DNA of 64,000 nucleotides, from positions 2,302,079-2,366,078 of the forward strand of contig NZ_NISU01000001.1 of NCBI RefSeq assembly GCF_002335805.1. Direction: 5' to 3'. A model generated the notes under the pieces. That model was not told where the DNA came from. It saw nothing but the letters and a program-made list of their open reading frames with translations, and made no database searches. This document shows, one piece after another, positions 2,941 to 39,080 of this stretch. The stretch is from Bacillus sp. FJAT-45350 (GTDB taxonomy: Bacteria; Bacillota; Bacilli; Bacillales; NISU01). A program made the position numbers and the translations under genes. How positions within the stretch are numbered: the stretch's first letter is position 1; each line of letters begins with the position of its first letter.

Positions 2941-4572
2941 TTAATCTTCTCCAATAACCGCTTCTGCAATATTTACTGCATGGTCACCAATTCTCTCTAA
3001 GTTACTTACAATATCAACAAAAACAATTCCTGCTCCACCATCACATTTACCTTCATTTACTCGGATAATATGTTGTTTACGAAGCTTACGTTCCATTTTA
3101 TCGATACGTTCTTCCTTCTCAAGTACTAGTTGAGCTTGTTCAATGCTTCCATTATCTAAACAAGACATTGCCTCTTTTAACGTATCACTTGTAAGAGTAA
3201 ACATCTCGTCCAGGTCCGATAACGCTGTTTCAGAAAGGCTAATTTTATTTGTTAATGCATAATCCTTTAATTCTATAATATTTTCAAAATGGTCACCAAT
3301 TCTTTCAATATCTCGAACAGTATCCATTAATGTTGAGTGTAATTTTGAATCCGGATCTGATAAAGAACGGGATGAAATTTGTATTAAGTACTCAGTAATT
3401 TTTCTATCAAGGTTATTTATTGCTTCCTCAAATTGAACAGCCATCTCTGCATGTCGCTTCTGACCTGTAGCCATATACTGACTTGCTTCTTGAAGACCTT
3501 TTTCTGAGAAATCAGCCATACGAAGAACTTCTGCTTTCGCTTGACCTAAAGCAATTGATGGTGAGCTACCAATAAAGCTTGGATCTAAGTGCTTTGCTTT
3601 ATATTCGATTTCATACTCTTGTCCAGGGATTATTTTAACTGCAATTAACGCTAGTAGTGCTACAAATGGTAGTTGTATTAATGTGTTTGCTACATTAAAT
3701 ATACCATGAGCAAAAGCAATAGTCATTTCGGGATTTAACATAAGCTGATCGCGTAATGCACTAATAAAACGTAAGTATAACGGGAATATAGATAGTACAA
3801 TTATTGTACCAATTAAGTTAAAAATAACATGTACTAGAGCAGCGCGTTTCGCTGTGATTGAAGCACCAATTGCTGCTAATACAGCTGTAATCGTAGTTCC
3901 AATATTATCACCAAACAATACTGGTAATGCAGCTGATAATTCCATAGCACCTTGTGAATATAACGTTTGTAATAAGCCTATAGATGCTGATGAACTTTGT
4001 ACAGCAACAGTGAAGATAGTTCCTATGACTACACCAAGGATTGGATTAGTACTCATACTTACTGTCAAATCAGCAAACGCTTGTACTTCTCTTATTGGTT
4101 TTAGACCTTCCCCCATTATATTCAATCCATAGAAAAGAGCACCAAAACCAAACACAACCTGTCCATAGTTACTAACCTTTTTATTCTTAAAGAAGAATAG
4201 TAAGAATGAGCCGACAGCTATTATAGGTAAAGCGTAGGCAGAAATCTTAATACCAATAATAAAAGCCGTCACTGTTGTACCTATATTGGCACCCATAATA
4301 ACACCAACAGCTTGTTTTAATGTCATGAAGCCTGCATTAACAAGACCAATTGTTAAAACAGTAGTTCCGGTACTTGTCTGCAGTAATATCGTTACGAATA
4401 GACCCGCTATTACCCCCATGACTGGATTAGAAGTAAAGCGGTCTAGTAATTCTCTTAAGCGATCTCCTGCTACCTTTTGAAGACCATCACCCATAAATTT
4501 AATACCAAATAGGAAAATCCCTAAACCCCCAAAAAACATAAAAAGCAATGTCTGTAAATCCAATTCTCTCAT
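2941..4572 (-). CDS. Na/phosphate cotransporter family protein with C-terminal PhoU domain
   Basis: Probable sodium-dependent phosphate transporter of the NptA/Na-Pi II family in the plasma membrane, with a soluble tail. The 543-residue protein has two inverted Na-Pi repeats with the QSSSA-type signatures (QTSTGTT near residue 65 and QSSSASIGLL near 193), several membrane segments up to about residue 310, then a PhoU-like helical domain from about 350 containing two repeats of the ERIGDH pattern. Tail domains of this kind usually tie transport to phosphate status. It stands alone behind a PhoP-box-like array. The ATG touches GAAGGG with no spacing; a TTG three codons later sits 9 nt from AAGGG and may be the true start. 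Confidence 0.9.
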   Translation of the reverse strand: MRELDLQTLLFMFFGGLGIFLFGIKFMGDGLQKVAGDRLRELLDRFTSNPVMGVIAGLFVTILLQTSTGTTVLTIGLVNAGFMTLKQAVGVIMGANIGTTVTAFIIGIKISAYALPIIAVGSFLLFFFKNKKVSNYGQVVFGFGALFYGLNIMGEGLKPIREVQAFADLTVSMSTNPILGVVIGTIFTVAVQSSSASIGLLQTLYSQGAMELSAALPVLFGDNIGTTITAVLAAIGASITAKRAALVHVIFNLIGTIIVLSIFPLYLRFISALRDQLMLNPEMTIAFAHGIFNVANTLIQLPFVALLALIAVKIIPGQEYEIEYKAKHLDPSFIGSSPSIALGQAKAEVLRMADFSEKGLQEASQYMATGQKRHAEMAVQFEEAINNLDRKITEYLIQISSRSLSDPDSKLHSTLMDTVRDIERIGDHFENIIELKDYALTNKISLSETALSDLDEMFTLTSDTLKEAMSCLDNGSIEQAQLVLEKEERIDKMERKLRKQHIIRVNEGKCDGGAGIVFVDIVSNLERIGDHAVNIAEAVIGED

Positions 4573-4643: not shown

Positions 4644-4686
4644 CTAATATTGATTTAATATTAATGATTTGTAAAGTTTTTATTAA
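4644..4686 (-). promoter_or_regulatory. PhoP-box-like repeats and -10 upstream of the Na/Pi gene
   Basis: Reverse strand: TTAATA-N5-TTTACA-N5-TTAATA-N9-TATTAG. The hexamers fit TT[ATC]A[CT]A at an 11-bp period, as in Bacillus PhoP boxes, and no sigma-A -35 is seen. The -10 is about 72 nt upstream of the gene. The rest of the 426-bp gap holds AT-rich sequence and the promoter of the next rightward gene; no other gene is visible. Confidence 0.55.
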
Positions 4687-15201: not shown

Positions 15202-15337
15202 ATTAACTTCTATTTTTTATATTTTGTTGTTCAAATTTTCATTATACCTTTCTTTCTTGGAATAACAATGCAATTGAGCGTAAAAAACGTTATAATAAAG
15301 GAATTAGTAACATTTTACATTTAAGGAAGTGAGCATC

Positions 15338-16882
15338 TTGAACGAACATAAATATGCAATCATCGATATGGGCTCAAATTCCATACGGCTTGTCATTAAC
15401 TCAATTGATAATCATGGCTATTATAAGGAATTATACAATTTTAAAGTGGTTGCCAGACTAAGTAGCCTTGTGACAAAAGAAGGTCTCATCACTAATCACG
15501 GAAAGGAAACTATCTTAGAAACCCTCAAGAAGTTTGAAGAGATTATTAATGACCATCATGTTGATGAAGTCAAAGGTGTTGCTACAGCGGCTGTAAGGAA
15601 AGCTGTAAACCAACAAGAAATACTACAAGCTATTTCTAATGAAACATCACTAAAATTTGATGTTCTTTCTGAATATGAAGAAGCCTACTATGGCTATTTG
15701 GCAGTAGTGAATTCAACAAATCTTGAAACAGGTGTGACAATTGATATTGGCGGTGGTAGTACTGAAGTGACACTTTTTGATAACCGCGAACTTATCCACT
15801 ACCATAGCTTTCCATTTGGTGCTATCACGTTGAAACAGCAATTTATTCAACATGACCAGCCTACTAATGAAGAGCTCCAAGAACTGATTTCTTTCCTAAA
15901 TTCTCAGTTTAGTTCTTTACCGTGGTTACATGGTTGTAACCTTCCTGTTATCGGTATCGGTGGTAGCGCAAGAAACCTCTCATTAGTTCACCAACTAAAA
16001 GTGAATTATCCATTATCCGGTTTACATCAATATGTAATCAAATTAGAAGACATTCAATCCATTTTAGAACAATTTGTGTCTCTAAGCTTTGAGGAACGAC
16101 AGAATATAGATGGATTATCTAACGAAAGGGCAGACATTATTATCCCTGCAGTTCAAGCAATCGCATCTTTAATGACAATGACTGCTTCTACTCAATTTAT
16201 AATGAGCAATAAAGGGCTTCGAGATGGTATTTTTCACGAAAAAGTTTTTCAAAAATTAGGATTAAAGCAGTTTCCAAATGTAGCTGAAGAAAGCTTCTAT
16301 CAGCTAACACAAAGCTATAACATTAACATGTATCATGTAAAACAAATTGCAAAAATAGCTGGTATAATTCTCAAACAGACACATTCACTTTCAGAGTCTA
16401 CTTATACTTTGGAAGAAGATTTACGCCTACTACGATATAGCACTCGGGTACTTTACCTTGGAGAGTTTATTAGTTCTGAAGCTAGTAGTCAGCATACATT
16501 TTATCTACTAACGAATATGACAATAGATGGTTTATCACATGAAGACAGGCTTGCTATAGCCTTCATAGCTTCCTTTAAATCTCGCTCGTACCTTAACAAG
16601 TATTCTCAAGCATTTAGCGAGCTTGTTACTAGTGAACAATTAAAAAGATATGAGAGATTAGGGGCAATTTTAAAGCTTGCTTATAGCCTAAATCGAACAC
16701 GTAGAAATGTAATTACAGATATAACTGTAACTAAACTTCCAAAAAGAGCATTAGCTTTTTATATACAATGTCGTAAGGATGCACATTTTGAAGGGCAACA
16801 ATCACAAAAGTATAAAAAACACCTAGAAAAAGCGATTGGTTTTCAGGTTGAACTTCAATTTGAACAGAATTCTTCTAATTAA
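15338..16882 (+). CDS. ppx: Exopolyphosphatase, Ppx/GppA family
   Basis: Releases orthophosphate from polyphosphate chains. The 514-residue length is that of long Ppx proteins with a C-terminal HD-like helical domain. The ATPase-fold motifs are AIIDMGSNSIRLVI at the N-terminus, EYEEAYYGYLAV, and the phosphate loop TIDIGGGSTEVTLF near residue 137. The C-terminal part (from about 300) is helical. The start chosen is TTG with AAGGA 9 nt upstream; a GTG three codons earlier touches the same site. It lies immediately before ppk on the same strand, an arrangement of opposed enzymes for polyphosphate balance. Its stop codon lies inside the PhoP-like array of ppk. Confidence 0.92.
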   Translation: MNEHKYAIIDMGSNSIRLVINSIDNHGYYKELYNFKVVARLSSLVTKEGLITNHGKETILETLKKFEEIINDHHVDEVKGVATAAVRKAVNQQEILQAISNETSLKFDVLSEYEEAYYGYLAVVNSTNLETGVTIDIGGGSTEVTLFDNRELIHYHSFPFGAITLKQQFIQHDQPTNEELQELISFLNSQFSSLPWLHGCNLPVIGIGGSARNLSLVHQLKVNYPLSGLHQYVIKLEDIQSILEQFVSLSFEERQNIDGLSNERADIIIPAVQAIASLMTMTASTQFIMSNKGLRDGIFHEKVFQKLGLKQFPNVAEESFYQLTQSYNINMYHVKQIAKIAGIILKQTHSLSESTYTLEEDLRLLRYSTRVLYLGEFISSEASSQHTFYLLTNMTIDGLSHEDRLAIAFIASFKSRSYLNKYSQAFSELVTSEQLKRYERLGAILKLAYSLNRTRRNVITDITVTKLPKRALAFYIQCRKDAHFEGQQSQKYKKHLEKAIGFQVELQFEQNSSN

Positions 16883-16921
16883 CAAAATCTTTACATAATA
16901 TTAACAAATAGCTGATAAAAT
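16879..16921 (+). promoter_or_regulatory. PhoP-box-like array and -10 of ppk
   Basis: TTAACA (16879-16884), N5, TTTACA, N5, TTAACA (16901-16906): three near-perfect hexamers at exactly 11 bp, then 9 nt and TAAAAT. The array overlaps the ppx stop codon. No -35 hexamer is recognisable, as expected for an activator-dependent promoter. Confidence 0.7.
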
Positions 16922-16975
16922 GAGGATAGATTTTATGACGAATAATCCATTATATTAGAGAAAGGTTGACTTTTT

Positions 16976-19081
16976 ATGGAAGATACTAAAATAGAAAAAC
17001 AAGTAGACCTTAATAACCCAACCTTCTATAACAACCGCGAATTAAGTTGGCTTGCCTTTAATGAGAGAGTGTTAGAAGAAGCCATAGATGAACGCAACCC
17101 CCTTCTAGAGCGACTTAAATTTTTAGCAATTTTCAGTTCTAACTTAGATGAGTTCTTTATGGTACGAGTTGCAGGTCTTAAAGATCAAGTAAAAGCAGGT
17201 TATAATCGCCCGGAAAATAAAGCAGGATTAACACCTAAGCAACAGTTGAAACAAATAGCTGAAAAGAATCATCGACTAGTACGTTTACAGGATAATGTTT
17301 ATACAGAAACATTACTTCCTATGCTTTATCATGAGGGAGTACAATTTTTATCAATTGATGAGCTTGATGATATTCAAATGCAATTCTTAGAGAATAGGTT
17401 TGACCATTACATCTTCCCTGTCTTAACACCTATGGCAGTAGATGCTTATCGCCCTTTTCCTATGCTTCTAAATAGAAGTGTCAACCTAGCAGTTGTTCTC
17501 CAAAAAGACCGTCAAAAATCTAGAGAACAACTTGCTATCGTTCAAGTACCAGGAGTACTTACTCGATTTATTAAAATTCCTAGTGCCAATGGGAAGCATC
17601 AATATATTTTACTTGAAAATGTAATTAGTCATTTTATCGGGAAGCTTTTTTCAGGTTATGTAGTTAAGTCAGTTTCTCCATTTCGAATTACCCGTAATGC
17701 AGACTTAACGATCCATGAAGAAGGTGCACGGGACCTATTAAGAGAAATCGAAAAAGAATTAAAGAAACGTAAATGGGGAGCAGCCATTCGGCTAGAAATG
17801 CAAGAAGGGTTGATGGATCCAAAGGTGTTAAATCTATTACTAGATGTACTAGAAATACACAAAAACGATGTGTATTCATTCAATGGTCCTTTAGACTTAA
17901 GCTTCCTTTTTAAATTTTACGGAGAATTAGTACAGGATTATGAGCATCTAGCAAATGACACGCTAATACCTCAGCCAGCTAACGATTTAGTCGATGAGGA
18001 AGACATTTTTTCAGCGATATTGAAAAAGGATATCTTTTTTCACCATCCATATGAATCGTTTCAACCAATCGTTGATTTTATTTCCTTAGCCGCGGATGAC
18101 CCAAATGTGCTAGCTATTAAACAGACACTCTATCGCGTAAGTGGAGACTCTCCTATCATTACAGCGTTAGCTCGTGCAGCAGAAAATGGAAAACAAGTTA
18201 CTGTCCTCGTTGAACTGAAAGCACGATTTGATGAGGAAAACAATATTCAGTGGGCGAAAAAACTAGAAAAATCCGGTGTACATGTTATTTACGGCATTAC
18301 TGGTCTAAAAACTCATAGTAAAATTACGTTAGTTGTTCGTCATGATAATAACTGTATTCAACGGTTTGTTCACTTAGGTACAGGAAATTACAATGATTCG
18401 ACAGCAAAACTTTATACAGATATGGGAATTCTTACATCTGGTGAATCATTTGGCATTGATGCTACTAATTTTTTTAACTATTTAAGTGGCTATAGCGAAA
18501 AACCTCTATGGAATCATATTTCAACAGCACCTTTTGAAATACGTGAAACTTTCATTGATATGATCGAAAGTGAGATAGAGTACCATAAACAATATGGTCA
18601 AGGTCGAATCATTGCAAAAATGAATTCCCTAACAGACAAACCGATAATTCTTAAATTATATGAAGCTTCACAAGCAGGAATTAAAATTGATTTGATTATT
18701 AGAGGCATTTCTTGTTTACGTCCAGGTATTGAAGGAGTTAGTGATAATATACGAGTCATCAGTATCGTCGATCGGTTTTTAGAGCATAGTCGAATTTTCT
18801 ATTTTCATCATGGTGGAAGTGAAAAGTTATTTCTATCCTCTGCTGACTGGATGACAAGAAATATGGAAAAACGTATTGAAATCCTCTTTCCAATCGAAAG
18901 TGAGACTATAAAAGAACGTATCAAGGATATATTACAAATCACCTTACAGGATAATATGAAGGCAAGGGAGCAAGACAAAACAGGATGCTACCATTACGTG
19001 AAGAAAACTGAACTCGAACAACCAATACAAAGCCAACTAACCTTCTACGAAATGGCTGCACAATTTAGTGAAGATGAATAA
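16976..19081 (+). CDS. ppk: Polyphosphate kinase 1
   Basis: Transfers the terminal phosphate of ATP onto polyphosphate chains, reversibly. At 701 residues it has the usual Ppk1 size with N, head, C1 and C2 domains. YNNRELSWLAFNERVLEEA marks the N domain. C1 contains the histidine that is autophosphorylated in this family (TGLKTHSKITLVVR), and C2 carries HSRIFYFHHGG and the SSADWMTRN motif. The phospholipase-D-like fold cores are both intact. It may be transcribed from its own phosphate-starvation promoter. Paired with ppx, it would let the cell store phosphate and release it. Confidence 0.97.
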   Translation: MEDTKIEKQVDLNNPTFYNNRELSWLAFNERVLEEAIDERNPLLERLKFLAIFSSNLDEFFMVRVAGLKDQVKAGYNRPENKAGLTPKQQLKQIAEKNHRLVRLQDNVYTETLLPMLYHEGVQFLSIDELDDIQMQFLENRFDHYIFPVLTPMAVDAYRPFPMLLNRSVNLAVVLQKDRQKSREQLAIVQVPGVLTRFIKIPSANGKHQYILLENVISHFIGKLFSGYVVKSVSPFRITRNADLTIHEEGARDLLREIEKELKKRKWGAAIRLEMQEGLMDPKVLNLLLDVLEIHKNDVYSFNGPLDLSFLFKFYGELVQDYEHLANDTLIPQPANDLVDEEDIFSAILKKDIFFHHPYESFQPIVDFISLAADDPNVLAIKQTLYRVSGDSPIITALARAAENGKQVTVLVELKARFDEENNIQWAKKLEKSGVHVIYGITGLKTHSKITLVVRHDNNCIQRFVHLGTGNYNDSTAKLYTDMGILTSGESFGIDATNFFNYLSGYSEKPLWNHISTAPFEIRETFIDMIESEIEYHKQYGQGRIIAKMNSLTDKPIILKLYEASQAGIKIDLIIRGISCLRPGIEGVSDNIRVISIVDRFLEHSRIFYFHHGGSEKLFLSSADWMTRNMEKRIEILFPIESETIKERIKDILQITLQDNMKAREQDKTGCYHYVKKTELEQPIQSQLTFYEMAAQFSEDE

Positions 19082-38940: not shown

Positions 38941-38974
38941 GAAAAAACAATGGCTACAGATTGTGCCATTGTTA
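38941..38974 (-). terminator. Terminator downstream of era
   Basis: Stem AACAATGGC with GCCATTGTT (perfect 9 bp), then TTTTTTC on the reverse strand, about 107 nt after the era stop. It ends the era/cdd/DUF502/dgkA/ybeY/pgpH run. Confidence 0.8.
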
Positions 38975-39080
38975 AATCTTTGTTAACAGTATATTACATT
39001 CCTACAATTGGTTGCGGACGACTAAGAATTACCCTACAAATTCTATATAATCTAGACTTCATAAAACCTGTGTTGATATT

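Follow-up and report, generated by a model that had tools for sequence, protein, structure and literature searches.

The ppx-ppk junction

The window, by which we mean the whole analysed stretch of 64,000 nucleotides, carries ppx and ppk side by side on the + strand. The former (15329..16882, +) encodes a Ppx/GppA-family exopolyphosphatase, with 299 bits to TIGR03706, slightly below the cut-off of 307. The latter (16976..19081, +) encodes a polyphosphate kinase 1 (PPK1) that scores above the cut-offs of both full-length PPK1 profiles (NF003920, 1139.6 bits for a cut-off of 935; TIGR03705, 934 bits for a cut-off of 466). The stop codon of ppx and the ppk ATG at 16976 are separated by a 93-bp gap, in which no terminator was found. 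An earlier reading of this DNA from its letters alone (the sequence-only reading) had claimed three repeats, TTAACA-N5-TTTACA-N5-TTAACA, with an 11-bp period and 9 nt before a TAAAAT, and this is exactly what lies at 16879-16921. The junction reads TTAACA-AAATC-TTTACA-TAATA-TTAACA-AATAGCTGA-TAAAAT, where the three hexamers (16879..16884, 16890..16895, and 16901..16906, all +) are perfect TT[ATC]A[CT]A boxes spaced at exactly 11 bp, and AATAGCTGA is the 9-nt gap at 16907-16915. The same reading gave the sequence and position of the -10 correctly but overlooked the TG at 16913-16914 which, ahead of the TAAAAT at 16916-16921, makes it an extended -10 (TGaTAAAAT, 16913..16921, +). It had also noticed the missing -35, and our promoter scan found no sigma-A -35 at 16-18 nt from the ppk -10. 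From the position of the -10, transcription of ppk is predicted to start at 16927..16929 (+).

The array had further been described as lying inside the ppx stop codon. Box 1 does cover the stop (16880-16882); however, in the relatives its position varies, box 1 being found after the stop (28), overlapping it (18), or inside ppx (3), so the overlap is incidental, an accident of close packing.

PhoP-activated promoters of B. subtilis (phoA, pstS, tuaA, and others) have tandem TT[ATC]A[CT]A boxes about 11 bp apart on the coding strand, just upstream of a sigma-A -10 and with no -35. Head-to-tail binding of phosphorylated PhoP (PhoP~P) to at least two such 11-bp boxes immediately upstream of the -10 is a known form of -35 replacement. 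The ppk site shares the tandem boxes, their spacing of ~11 bp, the coding-strand orientation, and the lack of a -35, whereas it differs in having an extended -10, in its target gene, and in the number of boxes, as ppk and its relatives have two or three clear ones and B. subtilis promoters typically, though not obligatorily, four. Our main reading, to which we give a probability of about 0.88, is that the repeats and the extended -10 constitute a PhoP-activated sigma-A promoter for ppk alone, placed at the end of ppx.

Conservation upstream of ppk

Failure of the repeats to be conserved before ppk in relatives had been named beforehand as grounds for giving up this proposal, and the outcome favors it. 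We compared 109 distinct ppk loci, drawn from Bacillales and Clostridia, taking the ppk strand of the query as sense and the remainder of the same loci as the source of expected pair counts. A box pair is present on the sense strand in 55 of the 109 upstream regions versus 0.68 expected, and on the antisense strand in 3, counts which, because the genomes are related, do not represent independent events and are hence not probabilities. The enrichment is restricted to a spacer of 5, with no pair at spacers of 4 or 6. In the window, the pair consists of hexamers 2 and 3, and T[AG]NNNT follows it at exactly 9 nt in 40 of the 109 regions (0.08 expected). Besides the TAnnnT of the -10, the TGn ahead of it recurs in the relatives (T 0.89, G 0.75), with TG being no part of the selection criterion; judged by these frequencies, the extended -10 is conserved upstream of ppk. 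More distant -10s tend to lie 20-21, 31-32, or 42 nt from the boxes, that is, at about 9+11k, therefore the helical phase is roughly kept where a box has decayed, as if a degenerate box stood between the last clear box and the distant -10. The number of boxes is three at the window ppk, two in most relatives, and four at a ppk paralogue of one relative (G050), and within the conserved boxes position 5 also admits T (7-20%) and position 3 also C (2-4%).

A weight-matrix scan of relatives, suggested in the sequence-only reading as a check, also came out in favor of conservation. With a matrix trained solely on phosphate promoters other than those of ppk, 55 of the 109 upstream regions scored above the 99% shuffle level, compared with about 1 expected and 5 on the antisense strand, and the window ppk ranked 7th. 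The array is found before the ppk genes of two cultivable alkaliphiles, Alkalihalophilus pseudofirmus OF4 and Halalkalibacterium halodurans, and in a further family the pair is present at 12 of 16 ppk copies. A point against the PhoP reading is that half of the 109 regions have no perfect pair, including some alkaliphilic Bacillaceae (L046, L049, L063, and L097). The array is absent at all Aneurinibacillus and clostridial loci of this set.

The 93-bp gap without a terminator would also fit a simpler arrangement, in which ppk merely comes second in a ppx-ppk operon read from before ppx, and the repeats are an AT-rich chance occurrence or an unused relic. However, the ppk loci have kept the spacing, the strand, and the distance to the -10 but not the flanking bases, and the number of boxes varies with the phase roughly retained, which makes this arrangement very improbable. 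Read-through from ppx may take place alongside an internal ppk promoter.

Recurrence of the motif at other phosphate genes

The ppk array is far beyond chance. Allowing at most one mismatch, the triple has 4 matches in the 64-kb window versus 0.23 +/- 0.55 in shuffled sequences, with all 100 shuffles staying below 4. One of these matches (38970-38997, -) follows the gene of an Era-like GTPase and extends into what resembles a terminator, and we read it as chance. For the genome-wide search, exact patterns were used, with the strict triple defined as TTHAYA-N5-TTHAYA-N5-TTHAYA and the backward pattern as control. In the 4.3-Mb Bacillales genome, this yielded 6 hits at 5 sites, with 0 for the control. 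Phosphate loci account for three of the five: the divergent region between pstS and a chemoreceptor gene, the region before an nptA-type Na/Pi transporter gene, and the one before ppk. The specificity of the motif is incomplete, which counts against the PhoP reading, as one of the remaining sites lies inside moeA, where we take it for chance, and the other precedes fdhD, a formate dehydrogenase accessory gene (L033 2030-2057, G000:C1:1667429-1667456), where it is either chance or an unexpected regulon member.

The nptA-type gene lies in the same window (2941..4572, -) and encodes a Na/Pi cotransporter with a C-terminal PhoU-like domain (TIGR00704, over cut-off). Upstream of it, 12 kb from the ppk array, is a second array, TTAATA-N5-TTTACA-N5-TTAATA (4659..4686, -), followed 9 nt further by a -10-like TATTAG (4644..4649, -), and the transporter is a probable co-member of the regulon of ppk. 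The chemoreceptor gene, coding for a methyl-accepting chemotaxis protein, is divergent from pstS and has four boxes, 9 nt, and then TATTGT (L031 1965-2130, G000:C1:32664-32829), while on the opposite strand the pstS promoter reads TTTACA-5-TTTACA-5-TTAAAA, 9 nt, and then TAGAGT. The 9-nt geometry of ppk is thus common to three unrelated phosphate promoters of the genome, namely those of nptA, the chemoreceptor, and pstS. The promoter architecture suggests that the chemoreceptor is induced by phosphate starvation, possibly as a sensor of phosphate. Its orthologue in a relative (L143) is preceded by three boxes, and 9 nt after these comes a perfect TATAAT.

Six relatives were scanned for the strict triple, with overlapping hits merged and gene names read by eye from the translations. 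The triple was found at 18 places (3 hits for the backward control), 11 of which precede nptA (4), ppk (3), pstS (2), a phoX-like phosphatase gene (1), or the orthologue of the pst-linked chemoreceptor gene (1). Four of the six relatives have the array before nptA, and in three of these its distance to ppk is about 12-14 kb. Given that the same motif occurs at non-homologous phosphate promoters, it identifies the class of regulator independently of inheritance. Among the three ppk sites is that of a second PPK1 paralogue in G050, which has diverged to 63% identity with the window PPK1 and has its own four-box array (L142, G050:C1:2462925-2462963), so that both ppk copies of this genome are predicted to belong to the regulon. 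In another relative (G063), strict arrays precede two genes for ABC-transporter substrate-binding proteins (L157 and L151), one of them 9 nt before TATAGT, and these proteins possibly serve organic phosphorus uptake.

Candidate regulators of the ppk promoter

PhoP and PhoR are encoded in the genome in the order mdh-phoP-phoR (the mdh-like gene being seen by its 3' end), which is also the order in B. subtilis. The receiver domain of PhoP scores higher against PhoP of B. subtilis (1mvo, 187.7 bits) than against YycF of that species (about 131 bits). PhoR carries the sCache_like domain and scores over the PnpS cut-off (PF16736 and NF046044, both over cut-off); the genome has a single PhoR with an sCache_like domain, and B. 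subtilis is the sole match to it among the 14 control genomes. A point against the PhoP reading is that no comparable box array turned up ahead of phoPR here.

Two other regulators have to be weighed. WalR (YycF) recognizes TGTWAH-N5-TGTWAH, likewise six-base direct repeats at 11 bp, and its targets are cell-wall genes. Since this box, read in reverse complement, is exactly the PhoP box, the opposite strand of the ppk array, with TGTTAA-N5-TGTAAA-N5-TGTTAA, fits WalR perfectly as well, and binding of WalR there would tie ppk to cell-wall signaling. However, the match exists on the non-coding strand only, the coding orientation showing no TGTWAH-N5-TGTWAH, and the strand is fixed among the relatives, with 55 sense versus 3 antisense loci. 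The two boxes also differ in the bases they tolerate, as the T at position 5 and the C at position 3 seen at ppk loci are not accepted in WalR boxes. Moreover, the motif occurs at phosphate and not at autolysin genes, many such sites are TTAATA, and the constant 9 nt to an extended -10 fits an activator that replaces the -35. We thus regard WalR as an improbable owner of the site. Cross-phosphorylation between PhoR and WalR and between WalK and PhoP has been reported in B. subtilis (PMC13403408), and through such cross-talk WalR may make an additional contribution.

Direct repeats of 10-11 bp are common to OmpR-family regulators, and a different member of the OmpR/PhoB family with a similar code, ResD for instance, could in principle bind the site. 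In a relative (G028), the gene downstream of one strict site encodes a response regulator that is uncharacterised, and in the genome itself TTCATA-N5-TTCATA-N9-TAAAAT is found before a gene for a ResA-like thioredoxin (L118, G000:C1:1480951-1480982, -); in B. subtilis, the res genes are a PhoP target. Against this, the recurring targets (pstS, nptA, phoX-like genes, and ppk) are phosphate genes, and the ResD system is itself a direct PhoP target in B. subtilis according to Birkey 1998, as cited in PMC4415409. A regulator of this kind is the least plausible of the explanations considered here, and we hold its involvement to be extremely improbable.

With PhoP as the preferred regulator, the features expected of a PhoP-regulon member come together for ppk: the hexamers, the period of ~11 bp, the coding-strand orientation before a -10 with no -35, an encoded PhoP-PhoR pair, and conservation. 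The claim of a phosphate-starvation promoter for ppk separate from that of ppx is supported by this conservation, by the recurrence at phosphate genes, and by the presence of PhoP-PhoR. On these sequence grounds, ppk is a well-supported addition to a regulon of known type.

Proposed mechanism and comparison with known systems

Under phosphate limitation, PhoR would phosphorylate PhoP, and PhoP~P would bind the three TTHACA boxes, spaced at 11 bp, head to tail on one face of the helix. With the last box 9 nt before the -10, it would substitute for the absent -35 and recruit RNA polymerase to TGnTAAAAT. An mRNA with ppk and not ppx would then start near 16928, in addition to any read-through from ppx, and polyphosphate synthesis would be expected to rise relative to hydrolysis. 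Polyphosphate synthesis is thus predicted, and probably so, to be switched on separately from its breakdown when phosphate is scarce; a promoter for the kinase but not for the adjacent phosphatase suggests how the balance could tip to polyphosphate under these circumstances.

PPK1 is missing from B. subtilis, the model organism for the Pho response of Gram-positive bacteria. The profile search of the control genomes gave no PPK1 match in B. subtilis, in line with the statement of the sequence-only reading that this species has no classical ppk, and because of this lack there is little direct evidence on polyphosphate synthesis in the Bacillus Pho regulon. It is likely that in several families of Bacillaceae, phosphate starvation induces the PPK, and not the exopolyphosphatase, of the ppx-ppk operon via a PhoP promoter at the junction, and that the clade-wide Pho regulon adds the NptA transporter and the pst-linked chemoreceptor, a set which B. 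subtilis, having no PPK1, could not fully reveal. In the open-access literature, we found no published PhoP control of ppk in Bacillaceae; it may already be predicted in a regulon database or in a paper behind a subscription.

The PhoP box of Streptomyces lividans is of the GTTCACC type. In this species, ppk is under PhoP control (Ghorbel 2006a, as cited in PMC4415409), and by that account PPK induction is a known Pho-regulon function in other bacteria and phyla. The two cases are alike in that a polyphosphate kinase is under PhoR-PhoP and induced by phosphate limitation, as described for S. lividans and predicted here, whereas the phylum and the box are different.

The layout of direct repeats replacing a -35 is also shared with another system. 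At the PhoB box promoters of E. coli, OmpR-family direct repeats take the place of the -35 and keep a constant distance to the -10, whereas the sequence of the box is different. The gene order in E. coli is ppk then ppx, therefore an internal promoter there would serve ppx and not ppk.
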